From the NCBI GenBank assembly GCA_035546535.1, contig DASZWQ010000176.1, positions 1 through 64,000 on the forward strand: a stretch of DNA of 64,000 nucleotides, read 5' to 3'. The notes beneath the pieces were generated by a model, which ran no database searches, was not told where the DNA came from, and was given only the letters and a program-made list of their open reading frames with translations. A program made the position numbers and the translations under genes. Within the stretch, counting starts at the first letter, position 1. Each line of letters starts with the position of its first letter. Shown here piece after piece: positions 106 to 19,310 of the stretch. This DNA is from Pirellulales bacterium (GTDB lineage Bacteria > Planctomycetota > Planctomycetia > Pirellulales > JACPPG01).

Positions 106-810
106 TCATCGATTCATGCAATTTGAAAACACGGTCTTAGAGAATTCGCTGGCGGACAAAGCGCGACGCTGTCGTCGAATATCAGTCTCAGCGTTAAGCG
201 AGTGAAGGTGGACCAAAGGACTCGATGGAACATAGCCGTCCCTAACCATCCACTGACAGAACTCCTTCATTGCATTCAAGTAGTGGTTGCTGGTCTTGAC
301 GCCAATACGCTTCGTGCGACGCTCCTCGGCCAGCCAACCGAGCAGCTGAGAGCTTGAAATGTCTGCCCAGCACTTCAGGCGACACCCAGCGAGAACCCGT
401 TCGACTCGGCGACACGTGTGGTCAACATGTTTGGACGAATTACCCTTACTTTCGAGATAGCGTTGAAATGAAGTGAGGTGCTCGATCAATGGTTTCGATT
501 TACCGTCCTCATGCGGATCACCGAGCCCGGACTGAAGGCGCTCGGCCTTACGTTCGAGTTCAGCGGCCAGCTGTGCTGTCGCCTCCTTGTCGGCGTATCC
601 GGCGACTCGTTGCCAGCATCCCCTCGCATTCCGATATTGGACATACCACTTGCGCGACTCTTGAGTGAATCGCGTACCACAGTCGGCGACCGGTAAGACA
701 ATGGTCCGTCCGGATCGCTTAAGGCGGACGAAGCTACGGCCGTTCTTCAAGACAATTTCCGCGTCACTTGGAATCGGCTTCGTTGTCTTGACCTTGAATA
801 TGTGAGCCAT
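106..810 (-). pseudogene. Truncated tyrosine recombinase / phage-type integrase
   Basis: This 234-residue product has an N-terminal arm-binding-like part (about 1-110) and a SAM-like core-binding domain (about 115-205, around the WADISSSQLLGWL and NHYLNAMKEFCQWM segments). It ends just after ALSASEF, the point where tyrosine recombinases enter the catalytic domain. The R..HxR..Y catalytic residues are therefore missing, and the usual length would be about 370-420 residues. The last residues (SKTVFSNCMNR) look unrelated to the family. An IS5-like transposase start lies within 60 bases of the stop, so disruption by IS insertion is the likely cause. Before disruption it would have integrated an element at a tRNA-type site, and a tRNA 3'-end remnant lies about 140 bases from its start. 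Confidence 0.75.
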
Positions 811-4471: not shown

Positions 4472-5293
4472 TTACATCGGAAGCCGAAGATATCTAAAGG
4501 CGTCAAGAAAATCACTACGACAACTTAACACAGCAAAGTTAGTTATTTTACGGTCCAGCGGCCACGGATTCTGGCGCACGGATTTAGCGATGGGCCTCCG
4601 ATTTAGTTGAACTCCAATGAACGCGAGTACTCTTGTCATCTGCCCAGTCGGATCTTGTATCAATGCCTCGTATTCTACGTATAGCACCTCGCACTTCTCA
4701 CGAAGCGCGCCTAAACAGTCGCTCCACAGGCGCCGCTCGTTGTTACAGAACTCCATGAACTCGTTCCAATCTACTTCCACCGCATCTGCATTCGGCGCTT
4801 CCCTCGAATACCACCGTTCAGTCCGCATTGCTATTTTACGGGACACGAAGGCCTCCAGCATATCAGTCCTATAAAGTGCTATCACTTTCGGCACGCCTAG
4901 GTCGCGCGCAACGTCTGACGCGCTAATAGCATTTATGGCAAACTGATCGATCAAGACCTTCGCACCGACGAATTGTCGTGGTAGTCGGCCACACAGGGGA
5001 AGCTTTACGAAAAACGACAAGATGTGTAACCGCTTCCGCACGCGGCATTTGTGTGTGACGTTGCCGTACACTTCGAAGTTCGCATTTATAATTTCGCGAT
5101 GGCATGTGACGCGCCAATGCTGCTTCAAGTAGTCGACCATAAGATTCGATCCTGACCTGGCCGAACTAAGGACGAGGAAATTCCTGCGGCGAACGGTACC
5201 AAGTACGATTCCCAATAGTGCCGCGGTGAGTTGCACGGGAAGACAGCACCGTATGGTGCCGAGCATGCGGTCTTTGCTAAAGCCTCTTCCCAT
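4472..5293 (-). CDS. Sulfotransferase family protein
   Basis: This 273-residue protein carries the 5'-phosphosulfate-binding loop in FLVLSSARSGSNLMVDYL (about 39-56), the PAPS-dependent sulfotransferase signature (Stf0/Sulfotransfer type). A YRTDMLEAFVSRKIA helix, which usually holds the 3'-phosphate-binding Arg/Ser, comes later. The protein probably transfers sulfate from PAPS to a carbohydrate hydroxyl. A hydrophobic stretch near the N-terminus (PVQLTAALLGIVLG, about 19-32) could be a membrane anchor or simply precede the fold. It is about 50 bases from the next gene in the same block and is paralogous in plan to the second sulfotransferase at 6315-7049. Confidence 0.78.
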   Translation of the reverse strand: MGRGFSKDRMLGTIRCCLPVQLTAALLGIVLGTVRRRNFLVLSSARSGSNLMVDYLKQHWRVTCHREIINANFEVYGNVTHKCRVRKRLHILSFFVKLPLCGRLPRQFVGAKVLIDQFAINAISASDVARDLGVPKVIALYRTDMLEAFVSRKIAMRTERWYSREAPNADAVEVDWNEFMEFCNNERRLWSDCLGALREKCEVLYVEYEALIQDPTGQMTRVLAFIGVQLNRRPIAKSVRQNPWPLDRKITNFAVLSCRSDFLDAFRYLRLPM

Positions 5294-5349: not shown

Positions 5350-6318
5350 TTACAGGTGAAACAAGAAGCCTTTTGCAGACCCTTCCGGCTTATGAAGTGG
5401 TAGAAGCACCTGTGAGTGCTCAGCACAGAACGTCCGTAGTCCACCCGCGCGCGCATTTCCATATTGCTGAAATACTACTACAGTGTGATCGGGGACAAAA
5501 TACGGCACAAAGCGTTCCCACAACACTTGCGTAAGGTGGAAGTCTTGGCTCATGTCAAATACAATGATCCCAATGGACTGACCGCTCCACTCGAGTCCAT
5601 TAGTCATCGTCAGAGTAACATCGCATTCATGGATTTCCACGTAGTCCAACCAGTCGCCACACATACGCTCGAAAACGCTACGAAACGAGTCGCCCGTCGT
5701 TACCTGTAGCTCTGAGCGGACATCGGCTCGCAAGAGCCGTGTCATATAGTCTTCCCACGTGAAACGATCATACACATGGAGCAGTTTCGATTCGCGCCGC
5801 AGATTGCGCTGCAAGCCCCGCACAAGGCAACGCGATCCGCTCCCAAGCCAGCATCCTAATTCGACACACTCACCAGTGGTGCCATGGGTGCTCGCCAGCC
5901 ATTCAAGGTATGCCATCGTATCTGGATGGAGCATATTTGGAATGCTCGCATATTCAGTATGATGCGAAAGCACTGCCCAAGGACGCTCCTGACTCGCGCA
6001 GCTCTCTGAGGAGTACTTCAAATTCTCCGCAGCGACAGTAAGGTATTCGCCAGCTTCGCGATCAGCGAGCCCCAACTCCTTGTATTGCGATATCAGGTCC
6101 GCTACCTCTTCTCGTACGGGCACAAGCACTTCACCGGATTCTCGCAAATAGTAATTTTGCAAGCGACCACACAGTATGATGAGCCGCAAATAGAATTCCG
6201 CTTCACCGTAGGCTTCTAAAATAAACTCCCTGTCCAGCACTCGGCGAGCAAGGGATCGTACCGCATCAACCGCCTCCGTCGTGTCCATGTTCTGGAACCT
6301 TATCGCATTGGGCCTCAT
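5350..6318 (-). CDS. Methyltransferase-like protein (TylF/Methyltransf_24 type)
   Basis: This 322-residue protein has a helical N-terminal part (about 1-130) before a Rossmann core with ECVELGCWLGSGSRCLVRGL (about 145-165), which reads as a SAM-binding motif I. LLHVYDRFTWED follows (an acidic residue ending strand 2), then an IIVFDMSQDF strand near 250, where these enzymes place acidic/metal ligands. It resembles macrocin-O-methyltransferase-like proteins common in glycan loci. The role is inferred: O-methylation of a sugar. The start overlaps the stop of the upstream sulfotransferase by 4 bases (ATGA), so the two are translationally coupled. Confidence 0.6.
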   Translation of the reverse strand: MRPNAIRFQNMDTTEAVDAVRSLARRVLDREFILEAYGEAEFYLRLIILCGRLQNYYLRESGEVLVPVREEVADLISQYKELGLADREAGEYLTVAAENLKYSSESCASQERPWAVLSHHTEYASIPNMLHPDTMAYLEWLASTHGTTGECVELGCWLGSGSRCLVRGLQRNLRRESKLLHVYDRFTWEDYMTRLLRADVRSELQVTTGDSFRSVFERMCGDWLDYVEIHECDVTLTMTNGLEWSGQSIGIIVFDMSQDFHLTQVLWERFVPYFVPDHTVVVFQQYGNARAGGLRTFCAEHSQVLLPLHKPEGSAKGFLFHL

Positions 6319-7049
6319 GTGACATTAATAGATCGCAAGTGTGCCGACGCGGGAGGCAATAGGCACAATTGCGTACAGTTGTCGCCTTCCCCTGCAAGTG
6401 GTAGCGAGGCCCAGTTGGAAATTTTTTCTGAAAGCGGCCGGGGGTTTTGGCGGACCGACTCGGTGGCAACGTCGCATGGCGCAACGTCAAGAAAGCAAAA
6501 TAGCTTGTGGAGCACGCTTTGCGGGGCCATCACCAAGTCTTCATACGAGACAAGCCGGGACTCACATTCGCGAGCGGCTAAAAGGTTTAGACAGCGCCTC
6601 CACCGATCCCGTTCACGTTCGCGATACCGCAGAAAGTGGCTCCAGTCCACTGCTACCGCGTCCTGATTTTGGAGTCGTGTCGAGTACCAGAGATTATTGC
6701 GCTGAGCCACCTTAAGCGATACATATGCCTCGAGAGCGTTACGTCGATACAAGACGATCGTCCGAGCTGCCGAGCTGAAGTCCAAGAACGCTCCTAAATC
6801 AATAGGAAGTTCATCAAAGTGGTGAGTATGAACCTTCGAGCCCACAAGGCGCCCACGACTATCTGAATAGGCAGACCGCACATACTCGCATAGCGCATCT
6901 CGACCCATCGTTTCAGGTGCCGCATCCTTTCGGCCATCGCCATTCAGGATTTCCCCCCGACACCAAATATCCGAATGGCAATTTAGGTAATTGACCAGCA
7001 AGGATGAGCCACTTCGAGCGGAACTGAGCAACACGAAGGCGGGCATCAT
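6315..7049 (-). CDS. Sulfotransferase family protein, second copy
   Basis: This 244-residue protein begins directly with FVLLSSARSGSSLLVNYL, a PAPS 5'-phosphosulfate loop near the N-terminus, and has the YRRNALEAYVSLKVAQRNN helix that parallels the one in the 4472-5293 protein. The two share SVRQNP.PL near the C-terminus, so they are paralogues and may sulfate different positions. It lacks the longer hydrophobic N-terminus of the first copy. It overlaps the downstream methyltransferase-like gene by 4 bases and is 24 bases after the large fusion gene, well inside one operon. Confidence 0.78.
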   Translation of the reverse strand: MMPAFVLLSSARSGSSLLVNYLNCHSDIWCRGEILNGDGRKDAAPETMGRDALCEYVRSAYSDSRGRLVGSKVHTHHFDELPIDLGAFLDFSSAARTIVLYRRNALEAYVSLKVAQRNNLWYSTRLQNQDAVAVDWSHFLRYRERERDRWRRCLNLLAARECESRLVSYEDLVMAPQSVLHKLFCFLDVAPCDVATESVRQNPRPLSEKISNWASLPLAGEGDNCTQLCLLPPASAHLRSINVT

Positions 7050-7073: not shown

Positions 7074-9881
7074 TTACCGGCGTTCTGTGCTCTTCGCCAG
7101 TCGTCGTGATATCACGTCAAACATGTGTCCGCCCTCAACCCTAAACATCTGATCGAGCGACGGCCCTAACTCATAATCCATGGCATCCCACGCTTCGTCG
7201 CGGAACGCGTAAAGACACCACGACCATCGGAACTCGTCAAAAATATCCATCAAATCCGTTAGGTATTGCTGGGCACCGACGGTTTCGCGACAAATCCCAA
7301 ATTCGCCAATGAATATTTGAGACGAGCTCAAGCCCATCTCTTTGCGCCACACTTCGATAGGACTAAGGTAATTCCTAAGTGTCGCCTTATCCCACACCAG
7401 TATGCCGCCTTCCGTTGAGTCCGGCGATTGCCTCACCGGGCCGGGATAACAGTATCGCTGTTTATTATGCGCACGATTAGTTAACGCCACTGGCTGATAC
7501 ATGTGGCACGAATACATAACATTGCTATCGTCTACCAGCTTAAGCTGCGATACCCTTTGCGGATTTGCCCAGTGCGTGCTTTCAAATATTACCTTCAGAG
7601 TTGTCGAATGGCGCCGAATTGCGGTTAGGCAATCGGCGTATATTGCATTTAGCATATCTATGCACGGATCCGGCCCCAGCTCTTTAGAGGACCTGGTTGT
7701 ATCAAGAGGCGTGAATGGCTCGTTAAGAAGATCGAACGCGACGACATTGCGGTGCGAAGCGAAGTAATGTGCCAATGTATCCCATAGCTTAACGATGCGC
7801 ATCCGGTGCTCTACGGACGCCCACATCCGAAGGTCGTACTCGTCCGCAACGCTGAACAGCCTTCCTGGAACATGAGTGAGAGTCAACACAACCTTGAGGC
7901 CGTGTTCCGCAGCCATTTCAATGGACGTTGCCAGCCGACTGACCGTTTCGTCGGATATGCAAATGTTATCCCCAGTTGCGTCGACCAAATACCGCAGATC
8001 TGTTGCATCGTTTACTGCCCCAATTCGTATCACTTTAACTCCCGCCTGGCGCACATCTCGAAAGTCCTGCCGCGTCGCTTCGGAAAACATATTCACGCCC
8101 GCAAACCTCGCATCAACATCCCACTCCACTGTGGTAGCAGGCACATCCACTTTCTTTGCTGAGGCACGTCGTAGACTGTACGGCCAGCCCGCCCTCATGT
8201 GATGCACGTACATGTTTACTCGCTCGGCCTGCACGTGTGGATTAAGGAACAAGGCCACCGACGCGTCCTCGGCGCTTGGGGTGAAGCGCGCCACGTCATC
8301 GGCTCTGATCTTCCATACCGGAATGTGCAGGATCGCACCGAACACATAGGACATCCAGTAGTCGTCAATCAGCCAAAAGTCCAAACGGGGAATCGGCACA
8401 CTCGCGGCTGCTTGCATTACCTTAGTGCTTATAAGGCAGTTGTCCGCATGAAAGAAATGCACCTGCCTGTCGTCAACCCCCTCATCAAAAAAACGAATAT
8501 GTTCATAATCGGTCCATATACGACCTGGATTCTCTTCATCCATGTCGTGCGGAAGGAACACGTGTCCACGAATACATAGGACAGCCTCGGGCCCATATTC
8601 GCGACGCTTGCTCATGAAGCGCGCTACGTAGTGCGTTGAGGGGATCACATCGTCGTCGCAGATTAGAATATCGGGGCTTCTTACGAGACTGGCCGCCGCG
8701 AGGCGCACGACACAATAATAATTGAACGACGACTGTATTAATGTAATATCTAGGACGTCACGGAAGCGAGCACATATGTGCTCCAACGCATCTTGTGTGT
8801 CCTTGTTGTTGTTCCAGATGATCACCTCGAACGTGCCGTCATACGTTTGTTGGCAAAGAGCCTCTAATATTACAGCGATGTTATCTAGCCGCTTGTAAGA
8901 ACAGATAAGAAGGGACACGTCGTACGTGCGAAAGCGCTGTTGAGTGCTGGGTACTGGCAACGAACGGTATATTGCCGATTCGACCACTGCGTCTACAAAC
9001 GTCTCTCTCGATAGTGTGCCGCCCTCGCGGATCTCCGCAAGATGCGCCACCGCGGCCTCAAGGCGTGCAGAATCCGATAACAATGCGGAAGCCTCGTCCA
9101 GCGATTCGTAAAATAACGGGTAGTCGTTTCCCAAATACTCTACAACTCCCGGAAGTCTATTTATTAGTAACGGCGTACCCCTCGCTATGCACTCCAAGAC
9201 GGTAGTATTTGCCGGGGCGTCGTATAGATTTAAGAAGAGAACTGACCTTGCCACTAAAGCATCGTATTCCTCGTCGCTCACTCTCGGAAGTCGGAGAACT
9301 GATCCTGTGTCACGAACGTGATCTAAACGTGCATTGCTGGGCAATAATAGGTACTTCCTATAACCGGGTGCCTCGAGATCGAAGAACGCCTGGTAATTTC
9401 GCAAATATTCGCCAACGAACAATAAGCGTCGCTCGCTCTGCTGATTGTACGTGCGAAAGTCGAAGCGCGACGTTGTCGGCGTAAACGGGTAAGGTACTCG
9501 AGCGACGGGGATCTCTGGACATTCGGCGAGAAGATAATCCTTCAACACGGTAGAAAGGACGAAAAGCCCAAGACAATTCTTGGCGCTTGCGATCCAGGTG
9601 TCGAGTCGAAGAAGGCGTTCCAAGTCCGGAAACCACTTGAGGTTGTGGCGGGGCACCTGATGAAGAAACCCCACCCACGGCTCCGCAATTACATGTCCGG
9701 CAAACATTTCGTCTTCAACGGAACCAAGGAACTTGATTCCGTCGGCGCAGTGAAGGTTATCGCGGACTGCTTCGATGACGTCCTTCCAGCCGCCAGCATG
9801 ATGCTCCCAGCCTTCTTGACCGTCGAGGCGTATACAACGCGCGTGGCCGTCTCGCATAAACATCCAGTCCATATAGGGCAC
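7074..9881 (-). CDS. Three-module glycosyltransferase-GT2-GH5 fusion protein
   Basis: This 935-residue protein has three modules. (1) Residues about 1-310 form a GT-B-like glycosyltransferase, with RRLLFVGEYLRNYQAF and the C-terminal FLNLYDAPANTTVLECIARGTPLLIN donor-site segment. (2) Residues about 320-575 form a GT2/GT-A domain: DVSLLICSYKRL start, and a CDDDV metal-binding motif at 408-412. (3) Residues about 590-930 form a GH5-like TIM barrel, with acid/base Glu721 in VAFDLLNEPF and candidate nucleophile Glu860 in IFIGEFGI. The start lacks any signal peptide, so the hydrolase module appears cytoplasmic. The protein probably helps assemble the island glycan. Joining two transferases to a hydrolase-type barrel is unusual. 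Neighbours are an aminotransferase upstream (12 bases) and a sulfotransferase downstream. Confidence 0.75.
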   Translation of the reverse strand: MPYMDWMFMRDGHARCIRLDGQEGWEHHAGGWKDVIEAVRDNLHCADGIKFLGSVEDEMFAGHVIAEPWVGFLHQVPRHNLKWFPDLERLLRLDTWIASAKNCLGLFVLSTVLKDYLLAECPEIPVARVPYPFTPTTSRFDFRTYNQQSERRLLFVGEYLRNYQAFFDLEAPGYRKYLLLPSNARLDHVRDTGSVLRLPRVSDEEYDALVARSVLFLNLYDAPANTTVLECIARGTPLLINRLPGVVEYLGNDYPLFYESLDEASALLSDSARLEAAVAHLAEIREGGTLSRETFVDAVVESAIYRSLPVPSTQQRFRTYDVSLLICSYKRLDNIAVILEALCQQTYDGTFEVIIWNNNKDTQDALEHICARFRDVLDITLIQSSFNYYCVVRLAAASLVRSPDILICDDDVIPSTHYVARFMSKRREYGPEAVLCIRGHVFLPHDMDEENPGRIWTDYEHIRFFDEGVDDRQVHFFHADNCLISTKVMQAAASVPIPRLDFWLIDDYWMSYVFGAILHIPVWKIRADDVARFTPSAEDASVALFLNPHVQAERVNMYVHHMRAGWPYSLRRASAKKVDVPATTVEWDVDARFAGVNMFSEATRQDFRDVRQAGVKVIRIGAVNDATDLRYLVDATGDNICISDETVSRLATSIEMAAEHGLKVVLTLTHVPGRLFSVADEYDLRMWASVEHRMRIVKLWDTLAHYFASHRNVVAFDLLNEPFTPLDTTRSSKELGPDPCIDMLNAIYADCLTAIRRHSTTLKVIFESTHWANPQRVSQLKLVDDSNVMYSCHMYQPVALTNRAHNKQRYCYPGPVRQSPDSTEGGILVWDKATLRNYLSPIEVWRKEMGLSSSQIFIGEFGICRETVGAQQYLTDLMDIFDEFRWSWCLYAFRDEAWDAMDYELGPSLDQMFRVEGGHMFDVISRRLAKSTERR

Positions 9882-9893
9882 GAAGACGACGGG

Positions 9894-11000
9894 CTAAGTG
9901 CTAATGCTTCTCACTGTGTGAGTAATGCGTGCGATATCATCATTTACAAGACCGACGTAAGTGGGCAGGTAAAGCCCTTGACTGCACAATCTTGAAGATA
10001 CTGTGTAGCTGTGTCGATGGGTGTCTTTGGTCATGAATGGCTGGTCGTGCAGCGGCGTAAAGAACCGTCGCGTCTCGATTCCATTCCTTTGCAAGTATTG
10101 CTGCATTTCTTGTCGCGATACAGCACAGTCATCATTTACTAGAACTCCGTAGACCCAGTTTACAGCATCGGCCCATGAGGCTTGAGGCGGACATACGATT
10201 CCGGAAATACCGTCGAGACCAGAGCGATATGATTGAGCGATTCGCCGACGATCGGCAATCGCAGCATCAAGGTGGCGGAGTTGTGCCACGCCGATCGCGG
10301 CATGCATATTGGACATGCGAAAGTTAAAGCCAACGCTAGCATGGACGAAGCGCGTTTCGTCCGAGTCGCCAAAACACATGTTGCGAAGCGAACGCAAGCG
10401 CGAGGCAAGCGCGTCGTCATTGGTGACAACGATGCCGCCTTCTCCACAAGTAATAATTTTGTTCGCGTAAAAGCTAAATACAGAGGCAATTCCAAAGGTC
10501 CCGACTTGTCGCCCATCCACCTTTGCTCCGTGCGCTTCTGCGGCGTCCTCGACCAGGAGTAGATTATGCCGTGATGCGATACCAGCAATCGCTCCCATAT
10601 TCGAGGGATGACCGTAGGTGTGCACAGCAAGAATTCCGACGGTGCGATTGGTGATTCGACTCTCTATCTGGCCGGGGTCCATATTCCAGGTTTCGTCGGC
10701 GTCCACGGGAATTGGCGTGGCGCCACAATGAAGGAGAGCGAATATAGGTGCCATCATGACGAAATCCGGGACGATCACTTCGTCCCCAGCTTGTATGCCT
10801 AGAGCGGCAAAGAGAAGTTGCAACGCGCACGTGCCATTGCATGTCGCTATTGCATGAGTAACACCGACTTCTGAAGCGAAGCCAGATTCAAATTGCGAAA
10901 CAAATGCCCCCTGCGAAGAGATCCAGCCCCCATCAAACGCTTCGAGCAACAAGTTGCGCTCGTCGCCCCAGAAATAGGGCCGACTCACTGGGATTCGCAT
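9894..11000 (-). CDS. DegT/DnrJ/EryC1 sugar aminotransferase
   Basis: This 368-residue PLP enzyme transaminates keto-sugar nucleotides, as perosamine synthetase-like proteins do. The N-terminus RIPVSRPYFWGDE and the TCNGTCALQLL phosphate-binding loop are typical. VLVEDAAEAHGA carries the PLP-ring Asp, and the Schiff-base lysine is Lys181 in SFYANKIITCGEGG. I chose the ATG at 11000 because family members start close to this motif; an upstream GTG would add 14 residues. It follows the SDR gene by 60 bases. Together they could make a 4-amino-dideoxy sugar nucleotide for the island glycan. Confidence 0.85.
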   Translation of the reverse strand: MRIPVSRPYFWGDERNLLLEAFDGGWISSQGAFVSQFESGFASEVGVTHAIATCNGTCALQLLFAALGIQAGDEVIVPDFVMMAPIFALLHCGATPIPVDADETWNMDPGQIESRITNRTVGILAVHTYGHPSNMGAIAGIASRHNLLLVEDAAEAHGAKVDGRQVGTFGIASVFSFYANKIITCGEGGIVVTNDDALASRLRSLRNMCFGDSDETRFVHASVGFNFRMSNMHAAIGVAQLRHLDAAIADRRRIAQSYRSGLDGISGIVCPPQASWADAVNWVYGVLVNDDCAVSRQEMQQYLQRNGIETRRFFTPLHDQPFMTKDTHRHSYTVSSRLCSQGLYLPTYVGLVNDDIARITHTVRSIST

Positions 11001-11060
11001 TGAGTTGTTGTATCCTTCCACCGTCACACTCCGTGCAACCACAAAGCGCTTGCGTTTACG

Positions 11061-12059
11061 TCATCGATACATATTGCAACCATCGGAAAAGGCTTCCCAG
11101 CTCCAACGGCTTCCATTCGCACGAAACCAATCGAGTGTTAATCGCAAGCCCTCCTCGATCGTAACGGTGGGTGCCCAGCCAGTTAAGTGTTTGAGTTTTG
11201 TATTGTCACACCTAAAATAGTCGATGTCACAAAGGCGTAAGCGTGCAGGATCGACCTCGATTTGCACATTGTCCAATTCCATTAGGCGCGCGAGCATCTT
11301 CACCAACTCCTCAACGCTATGTGCGTTATCTGATCCTACATTCACCGCAGTGCCCGACGGCACATCGGCCTCCAAAAGCGCAATGAGAGCTTTAGCGGTA
11401 TCGTGGACATATGTAAAATCGCGCTGGGCCTTCGTGTTTCCTAGCTTCAAAACGGTGCCCTTATTAAGCTGAGAAATGATCTCCGGGATAACATAGGGCT
11501 CGGATTCTCTAGGGCCGTAGCAATTAAAGATTCTTGCGATTACAACAGACACAGAGTGCTCTATCGCGAACGTGTAGGACAGGCGGTCTGCCGCTAGCTT
11601 CGAGACAGCGTACGTGTTGACCGGCGCAAGAGGATGAGACTCGCTAGCACGCGGGGAGATGAGCGGGCCGTACACCTCAGTACTTGAGACGTATAAGACT
11701 CGTCGTATCGCGTGGTTGCGTGCTGCCTGTAAGACGTTGTAGTGGCCCGCTAAATTAATATCAAAGAAACGTTTTGGCATACTGTAAGCAGTCGGTACAA
11801 ATGTGTCGCCAACACAGTTAATTACGGTCGATACATTGTGTTCCGAAATGGTGCGAGATAACTTCCATTCGTCCAGTAAATCACCGCAAATCGCGACCAA
11901 AGAATCGGGAAGACCAGCTACGTTCGACGGAACTCCATGCAAATAGTTGTCGTAGGAGACAACTTGGCAACCTCGCGATAGGAGTTCTCGAACAACCGCC
12001 GATCCGACAAAGCCGGCACCGCCAGCCACCATCACAGTTCCGTTTCGCAGATCAATCAT
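11061..12059 (-). CDS. NAD-dependent epimerase/dehydratase (extended SDR)
   Basis: This 332-residue protein has the Rossmann motif VAGGAGFVGSAVV at the N-terminus, YVSSTEVYG with the catalytic Ser/Thr, and the YAVSK (YxxxK) pair, followed by RIFNCYGPRE. These are hallmarks of nucleotide-sugar epimerases, dehydratases and decarboxylases. No feature fixes which reaction it carries out. With the adjacent DegT aminotransferase it probably prepares the keto or epimerised sugar nucleotide. It is the first gene of the minus-strand island block, so the promoter should lie in the 12.06-12.9 kb stretch. Confidence 0.82.
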   Translation of the reverse strand: MIDLRNGTVMVAGGAGFVGSAVVRELLSRGCQVVSYDNYLHGVPSNVAGLPDSLVAICGDLLDEWKLSRTISEHNVSTVINCVGDTFVPTAYSMPKRFFDINLAGHYNVLQAARNHAIRRVLYVSSTEVYGPLISPRASESHPLAPVNTYAVSKLAADRLSYTFAIEHSVSVVIARIFNCYGPRESEPYVIPEIISQLNKGTVLKLGNTKAQRDFTYVHDTAKALIALLEADVPSGTAVNVGSDNAHSVEELVKMLARLMELDNVQIEVDPARLRLCDIDYFRCDNTKLKHLTGWAPTVTIEEGLRLTLDWFRANGSRWSWEAFSDGCNMYR

Positions 12060-12985: not shown

Positions 12986-13032
12986 CCGGAATCATAATCC
13001 GCGTGTCCGGGGTTCGAGTCCCTGCGCCGCTA
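12986..13032 (+). other. tRNA-Met(CAU) 3'-half fragment (candidate att site)
   Basis: The sequence matches a tRNA from the anticodon stem to the discriminator base. The stem CCGGA is followed by the loop ATCATAA with anticodon CAT and the stem TCCGC (four of five pairs). Next come a 5-base variable loop, the T-stem CGGGG, the loop TTCGAGT, the stem CCCTG and the acceptor CGCCGCT plus A. The D-arm and 5' acceptor strand are absent. A 3' half alone at a sharp composition border is the expected scar of an element that used tRNA-Met as its integration site. Confidence 0.6.
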
Positions 13033-13460
13033 TTTGCCGAAAGGCATTTAGCTCTATCGGTTTGCGTCGCCGGCCTTCGCCGGCCTTCGAATCTGCCCGT
13101 TCCCCTCGTTGTCATCGGCGGTTGGTGATCTCGAAGCGCCTCGAGCCGCCGGCCAAAAGCATCGGCCGCGGTCCGCGTCTTCTCGCCGACTTCTTAGGGC
13201 ACGCTCGTGTTTAAAGACTTTCGATTGCAAATTGGATGACCGGCGATTACCTTGCACGGCATTCATCTGCCCTTGCACTCTGGTAAAGCCAGCCCAGCGA
13301 ATCACGCCGCCGTCTCTCGACCGATTCGCCATCGTCCATATTTTGCAAGGGCTTGCCGTCTTTCTCGCCCATGGGCCGCCATCCGTGCGCTTGTTCGGTG
13401 GGTTGTTCGCGAGTGAACACGGCCCCTCTCGTTTTCACATATCTCCAGGGGGTAAGAACT

Positions 13461-15022: not shown

Positions 15023-15167
15023 GATTCACCGCCAGGAGAACTGCAAAGTTGAGATTCTCCGCGCGAATCTTCTGTAGCCGGCCTCTGCGAGGCAGGGAGT
15101 TCACGTGCCGCTTCCGGGGTCACAGACCCCCGGCTACAGACTTTGCAGTTCTCCTGGATTCACCGCC
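15023..15167. mobile_element. MITE-like palindromic element with 11-bp flanking direct repeats
   Basis: The terminal inverted repeats are CCAGGAGAACTGCAAAGT (15032-15049) and its exact complement (15140-15157). A second, inner pair is CTGTAGCCGG (15072-15081) with CCGGCTACAG (15130-15139). GATTCACCGCC occurs on both sides (15023-15033 and 15157-15167), like an 11-bp target duplication overlapping the repeat tips by one or two bases. The element is about 125 bp with no coding capacity, which fits a miniature inverted-repeat element moved by a transposase elsewhere. Confidence 0.6.
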
Positions 15168-19115: not shown

Positions 19116-19166
19116 AGAAGTTGGCAGAGGGCAGCGGGCAGCCGGCAGAAAGGCAGTAGCCGGTAG

Positions 19167-19256
19167 TCAGTATCCGGTAGTCAGTAGTCAGTAGTCAGTA
19201 GTCAGTAGTCAGTAGTCAGTAGTCAGTAGTCAGTAGTCAGTAGTCAGTAGTCAGTG
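19167..19256 (+). repeat. 7-bp tandem array (AGTAGTC)n
   Basis: About eleven nearly perfect copies of a 7-base unit (gtagtca) run from about 19177 to 19254, preceded by two diverged copies. It lies between convergent genes. Short pieces of the same words recur at 22268-22285 and 29935-29956, again between genes. Confidence 0.85.
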
Positions 19257-19285
19257 AGGGAGGCGCGTCCTCGGCTCCCTATTTT

Positions 19286-19310
19286 GCCGCCGGGCTTGCG
19301 CGGCGGTTTT
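19286..19310 (+). terminator. Candidate intrinsic terminator after the Gfo/Idh gene
   Basis: GCCGCC (19286-19291) and GGCGG (19302-19306) form a GC-rich stem followed by TTTTG. It lies between the convergent Gfo/Idh and lysA genes. A longer cousin, TAGCCGCCGGGC / GCCCGGCGGGCTA, occurs at 22317-22343, so it may be a repeat-derived terminator. Confidence 0.45.

Follow-up and report, generated by a model that had tools for sequence, protein, structure and literature searches.

A predicted soluble fusion of two glycosyltransferase domains and a GH5 barrel in a Pirellulales operon

One gene of a Pirellulales bacterium appears to join two sugar-adding modules and a GH5 barrel, a module of the cutting kind, on a single chain that carries no export signal. 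This raises two questions: is the join real, and if so, what would a cutting enzyme do inside a protein that builds glycans? A first-pass annotation had offered three roles for the barrel, as a transglycosidase, as a hydrolase that proofreads, or as a transferase in its own right. All three are compatible with the evidence, and the sequence does not tell them apart.

The window analysed here is a stretch of 64,000 nucleotides (contig DASZWQ010000176.1, positions 1 to 64,000), and all positions refer to it. The source genome is a draft assembly in 210 contigs, and everything observed on the fusion comes from this one genome.

Three modules in one reading frame

The coding part of the gene runs on the minus strand from a GTG start at 9881 down to 7077, followed by the stop, without interruption. 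Upstream of the GTG the frame stays open for just 4 codons. The parts are:

7074..9881, minus strand: GT-B/GT2/GH5 fusion gene, a single open frame of 935 aa with GTG start
8952..9842, minus strand: GT-B (GT4-like) glycosyltransferase domain, aa 14-310, from an AlphaFold2 model and invariant residues
8157..8924, minus strand: GT2 domain, aa about 320-575, with PF00535 (Glycos_transf_2) at 323-489
8646..8660, minus strand: CDDDV, DxD-type motif of the GT2 domain, aa 408-412, read from the sequence
8124..8156, minus strand: short GT2-GH5 linker, aa about 576-586, with the other two frames closed and no hidden signal peptide
7077..8123, minus strand: GH5 barrel, aa about 587-935, from PF00150 and PDB endoglucanases
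7719..7721, minus strand: E721, predicted GH5 acid/base, aligned with a catalytic glutamate in 22 sequences
7302..7304, minus strand: E860, predicted GH5 nucleophile, aligned in 22 of 22 sequences

The N-terminal domain is a GT-B by its modelled fold, though it stays under the curated Pfam cut-off. Glyco_trans_1_2 matches weakly at 194-274 (19.2 bits versus a cut-off of 25), and reaches 21.3 bits, still below the cut-off, when the domain is searched alone. The AlphaFold2 model has pLDDT mostly above 90, and aa 14-310 form a complete GT-B fold that aligns to SenB, PimA, BshA and others (Z about 20, 268-284 residues aligned). The domain also keeps all residues that are invariant in a 39-sequence alignment.

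The middle domain is a GT2, judged by a profile above its cut-off (PF00535, E 7e-10, 39.5 bits versus a curated 23.3) and by the DxD-type motif, CDDDV, which the first-pass annotation had named. LIDDYW at aa 504-509 is a plausible catalytic-base motif.

The barrel is GH5 by profile and by its aligned catalytic residues. PF00150 (Cellulase/GH5) matches at 597-894 with E 4.1e-21 and 76.1 bits versus a curated cut-off of 23.5, and the PDB endoglucanases 8b3y, 8ag9 and 8anx match with E about 1e-22. The glutamates had been placed at exactly 721 and 860, and both positions hold: they align with the acid/base and the nucleophile of 8b3y. At the position of E721 there is an A in the 8anx chain, and an E in 8b3y and 8ag9. 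R619, N720, H793, Y795 and W888 are also kept, a family pattern across nearly all of the 22 aligned sequences; the beta-3 His of the barrel (H670) is one column off in the alignment. The catalytic set is apparently intact. From homology to 8b3y, this part would adopt a beta/alpha barrel fold; a single-sequence model, for which no alignment was used, has a mean pLDDT of 37. Structure prediction of the whole chain is confident for the GT-B domain only, and the GT2 and GH5 assignments are made independently of any model.

Because the Pfam matches for GT2 and GH5 are above their cut-offs, and the GT-B model is confident and complete, the three modules can all be taken as real. The earlier reading of three modules on one chain is thus confirmed by the fold model, PF00535 and PF00150.

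Export signals were judged by simple hydropathy, applied to the fusion and its relatives alike, rather than by a signal-peptide predictor. In the 935-aa chain this test finds neither a signal peptide nor a transmembrane segment. No hydrophobic segment is present (the 19-residue Kyte-Doolittle maximum is 1.46, and the N-terminal 40 aa score -0.14), as the absence of a signal peptide in the first-pass annotation had implied.

Could the frame be an assembly or sequencing artefact, which joins a glycosyltransferase gene to a separate GH5 gene? A draft in 210 contigs, and a join without a second example, would fit this. However, the two alternative frames are closed at the GT2-GH5 junction, and no frame there hides the signal peptide that a separate exported GH5 would carry. 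Codon-position composition runs on across this point without a break, and the spacing of 12-24 bp to the genes on either side fits one operon. An artefact is highly improbable, and the GT-GT-GH5 join looks real rather than an accident of frame.

Relatives of the modules and a genomic island

The combination had been called unusual, and a search of homologues for the same three-part order agrees with this. With the whole protein as query, a sample of just under 1,100 genomes yielded no second GT-B/GT2/GH5 protein. These genomes came in partly overlapping samples of 294, 15, 297, 292 and 197 genomes, drawn from the same order and phylum, Desulfobacterota, cyanobacteria and GT-B-carrying genomes, and passed through a coarse first filter. 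A query of GT-B plus GT2 against 98 further relatives gave no match joining transferases to GH5, and the GH5 profile against 392 genomes of the phylum gave none joining GH5 to transferase modules. Collections of plasmids, phages, viral contigs and genome contigs held no match uniting the GT and GH5 parts. Literature searches found no GT-GH5 fusions by name.

With the N-terminal domain and one relative from Crinalium as queries, the GT-B domain turned up at 18 bacterial and 33 viral-contig loci. In other proteins it stands by itself or is joined to GT2, GT4, sulfotransferase or TPR parts. Members of this unnamed family (from the Desulfobulbaceae locus L049, Crinalium, Moorena, Aminicenantes and viral contigs) are up to 42% identical to the domain in the fusion and have the invariant residues in common. 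In those relatives whose frames were examined, the domain ends the protein and none runs on into GT2 and GH5, whereas the fusion does. Searching genomes that hold the GT-B domain for the remaining parts gave the same picture, with the frame stopping after that domain. Another planctomycete has a GT4-GT2 fusion, clustered with a sulfotransferase gene. Since fusions of GT-B with GT2, GT4 and sulfotransferase parts exist in relatives, two-thirds of the architecture is ordinary; the GH5 is the unusual addition.

Some further observations concern this GT-B family. The 33 viral contigs are from IMG/VR (L067-L099), and no Pfam model above cut-off names the family. In Aminicenantes and an acidobacterium (L063:4970-7903 and L060:5402-7798) the same domain is fused to a sulfotransferase; in the window, sulfotransferases are separate genes adjoining the fusion. 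Outside this family, a planctomycete glycan cluster (L199:1767-4379) has a methyltransferase fused in one frame with a polysaccharide deacetylase domain, where an enzyme of exported type may likewise have been captured.

The nearest relatives of the barrel look very different from the fusion. All 21 of the best by profile score are separate proteins with a hydrophobic, signal-like N-terminus by the simple hydropathy test. The first-pass annotation had named two findings that would count against it, and they came out differently. Modules that are separate proteins in relatives are indeed what these free-standing GH5 enzymes are, and there is no sign of a frame that joins them by error. Loss of the catalytic residues in close homologues is not what was found, as the free-standing relatives keep them.

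This branch of GH5 includes exported enzymes of Phaeobacter, Pantoea, Ensifer, cyanobacteria and enterobacterial plasmids, and the CBM-like-GH5 endoglucanase 8ag9/8b3y. They are 28-33% identical to the barrel and have the same catalytic residues. Every exported relative starts with a signal-like sequence and lacks a GT domain, whereas the fusion has GT domains and no export signal. They are probably degrading enzymes. The alignment of the barrel starts at or just past their signal peptides, which is the start of the mature enzyme. Together with the closed frames and the absence of a hidden signal peptide, this suggests that the signal peptide was replaced by the transferases, and that no frame error is involved.

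Phylogenetically, the barrel is placed as sister, with support 99/95, to a group of exported GH5 proteins from proteobacteria and cyanobacteria. Its end branch is the longest in the tree, at 1.64 versus a median of 0.5, and the program warns that the placement of such a long row is unsure. Rapid change that spares the active site suggests an enzyme that has kept its reaction but acts on a changed or new substrate.

Two kinds of candidate were set aside in this search. Long open frames around GH5 matches (up to 990 aa) proved to be exported multi-domain hydrolases or spurious extensions, not GT fusions. A cyanobacterial GH5 in a frame of 610 codons turned out to be a protein of 413 aa that starts with a signal-like sequence of its own. 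Separately, one exported relative of the barrel (L042:11965-13164) adjoins blaSCO-1 in a mobile segment, found on plasmids of Klebsiella, E. coli and Serratia.

The fusion itself also lies in DNA of foreign appearance. From 1 to about 13,030 the window has a GC content of 0.52, versus 0.62-0.63 beyond, and the GC3 of the genes is 0.51-0.60 versus about 0.80. The boundaries carry these features:

12987..13036, plus strand: copy of the 3' end of a tRNA-Met(CAT), 46-50 bp, at the right island edge, where the GC step lies
106..810, minus strand: tyrosine-integrase fragment at the contig end, phrog_1 integrase E 9.5e-12, Phage_int_SAM_1 below cut-off

Each of the four genomes of the same genus that were searched has an intact tRNA-Met with a matching 3' end. 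Horizontal acquisition of the operon is very probable.

Near these edges, several other things were seen. On another contig of the same genome (C72, L172) an integrase-like frame adjoins tRNA-Met. Copies of positions 1-140, 96-100% identical, lie at the ends, or close to them, of five other contigs of the genome, and a partial one on a sixth, as would result from an insertion element interrupting the integrase gene. A second tRNA-like 3' end (GCGGGTTCGATTCCCGCCGCCTTCA) lies at about 950-980, close to the integrase fragment, and is perhaps a further attachment site. Beyond the island, about 15029-15157 and 19120-19300 are dispersed repeats of ~125 bp, with many copies of up to 94% identity. They occur on contigs throughout this genome and, as weaker matches, in the same genus.

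A single occurrence across all searches, a long branch and a mobile island are also what would be expected of a fusion without any shared function, in which a captured GH5 lost its signal peptide and the barrel now sits idle or drifts. Against this, the barrel still has its full catalytic set despite long divergence, the frame has stayed open, and in composition the gene matches the remainder of the operon. We regard such an idle barrel as unlikely.

The operon and the work of the barrel

The fusion is the third of eight co-directional genes on the minus strand, from 12059 to 1385. The other seven, in order of reading, are:

11061..12059, minus strand: NAD-dependent sugar-nucleotide 4,6-dehydratase (LegB-like), operon gene 1, PF16363/PF01370, LegB model below cut-off
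9894..11042, minus strand: DegT-type sugar aminotransferase (LegC-like), PF01041 E 9e-110, LegC model below cut-off
6315..7049, minus strand: sulfotransferase 1, PF13469
5350..6318, minus strand: methyltransferase-like protein 1, PF13578 weak and below cut-off
4472..5293, minus strand: sulfotransferase 2, PF13469
3732..4424, minus strand: methyltransferase 2, PF13489 and PF08241
1385..3745, minus strand: GH129-like protein, last operon gene, PF11308 E 5.6e-94, signal-like N-terminus

The dehydratase and aminotransferase, with family scores below the equivalog cut-offs, suggest that a 4-amino-4,6-dideoxyhexose is made. The GH129-like protein is apparently secreted; its signal-like N-terminus was read by eye, and its hydropathy is only moderate. 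None of the eight genes was recognised as a polymerase, flippase or ligase. A search for related operons, by way of the GH129-like gene and a methyltransferase, showed no common cluster order.

Two transferase domains, which use nucleotide sugars, and the lack of an export signal place the fusion protein apparently in the cytoplasm. There, the GT-B and GT2 domains would add two sugars, one after the other, to an acceptor. One of these sugars is plausibly the 4-amino-4,6-dideoxyhexose from the two preceding genes. As the glycan built in this way grows, the GH5 barrel would act on it through a retaining mechanism with two glutamates, most likely by cutting it. This could mean trimming chains that are over-long or wrongly built, or releasing a finished oligosaccharide. 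The sulfotransferases and methyltransferases may then decorate the glycan after the cut.

On this reading, to which we tentatively assign a probability of about 0.4, the fusion is a cytoplasmic glycan assembler with its own processing module, which edits or releases by cutting. Three things are inferred here: cytoplasmic activity of the barrel, the product of the attached transferases as its substrate, and hydrolysis rather than transfer as its reaction. This reading is consistent with a GH5 catalytic set that is intact even though the barrel has the tree's longest end branch, and with an operon that makes sugar nucleotides and decorates a glycan. There is also a precedent in Cgs, where a cytoplasmic transferase is joined to a GH-family module that sets the length of the glucan (PMC10901819), and active hydrolases within EPS synthesis systems have been called an emerging trend (PMC5933820). 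On the other side, with no second fusion found in these searches, selection for the combination is not demonstrable across species. The nearest relatives of the barrel are exported and probably degrade. A constitutive cutter tied to a builder would moreover be wasteful, unless it is regulated or specific.

The GH5 mechanism is a retaining one, and transfer is thereby permitted. The barrel might then be a transglycosylase, which takes the oligosaccharide as a covalent intermediate on E860 and passes it to a second glycan or another acceptor, making the protein a build-and-transfer machine. With no polymerase, flippase or ligase recognised among the operon's genes, this would supply a transfer step that is otherwise missing. 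The GH17 of the GT2-GH17 proteins, also of the retaining clan GH-A, has similarly been proposed to cleave and cyclise a glucan (PMC10237404), although that precedent is periplasmic. The sequence of the barrel carries no mark of transfer over hydrolysis. A transglycosylase is possible, if on the doubtful side.

Finally, the barrel might do no more than bind carbohydrate, keeping the acceptor or the product glycan in place for the transferase domains. A GH module of a synthase may have a non-catalytic role: for Cgs, it matters more that the C-terminal part is there than that it is enzymatically active (PMC10901819). But binding alone would not require that all catalytic residues be kept, as they are here, and a purely binding role is quite unlikely.

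Comparison with known systems

Proteins that combine building and cutting are not new. In Cgs (GT84-GH94) of Agrobacterium and Brucella, a GH94 phosphorylase domain controls chain length (PMC10901819). As predicted for the fusion, its transferase and its GH-family module share a chain and lie on the cytoplasmic side. Cgs is however a large membrane protein, made of GT84, cyclase and GH94 with six transmembrane helices, whereas the fusion is soluble and made of GT-B, GT2 and GH5. When tested for GT84, cyclase, GH94 and transmembrane helices, the fusion protein had none of them.

The GT2-GH17 'Orphan' BcsA-like proteins of pseudomonads similarly join a GT2 to a retaining clan GH-A module, and this GH17 is proposed to process the glycan of the GT2 by cleaving and cyclising it (PMC10237404). 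Their GH17 has a signal peptide, is periplasmic and is linked through transmembrane helices; the fusion has neither signal peptide nor transmembrane link, no periplasmic GH17, and adds a GT-B. It is therefore neither a Cgs nor a GT2-GH17 synthase, but on the best reading, in which the barrel cuts the glycan, it would work like both. WbsX/GH99-like proteins are further possible analogues; literature searches did not document such cases.

Hydrolases are common in EPS synthesis systems: BcsZ, PssZ, PslG and PgaB are also glycan cutters that belong to the synthesis machinery, as separate proteins from the transferases (PMC5933820). BcsZ and PgaB act in the periplasm, whereas the barrel is covalently joined to its transferases on a chain that lacks an export signal. 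What cutting enzymes do within glycan biosynthesis machinery has been described as not fully understood (PMC5933820).

As a tentative proposal, the fusion would be the first soluble GT-GT-GH synthase, a cytoplasmic machine that builds and then edits or transfers by means of a GH5 barrel derived from an exported, glucanase-like enzyme. The barrel would also be the first in this branch of GH5 to have a biosynthetic role in the cytoplasm. A soluble chain of two transferases and a hydrolase would make the cutter's role in synthesis testable in one tube, with and without the catalytic glutamates. It also suggests a route by which an exported, degrading enzyme may enter synthesis: its signal peptide is swapped for transferase domains on a mobile island.
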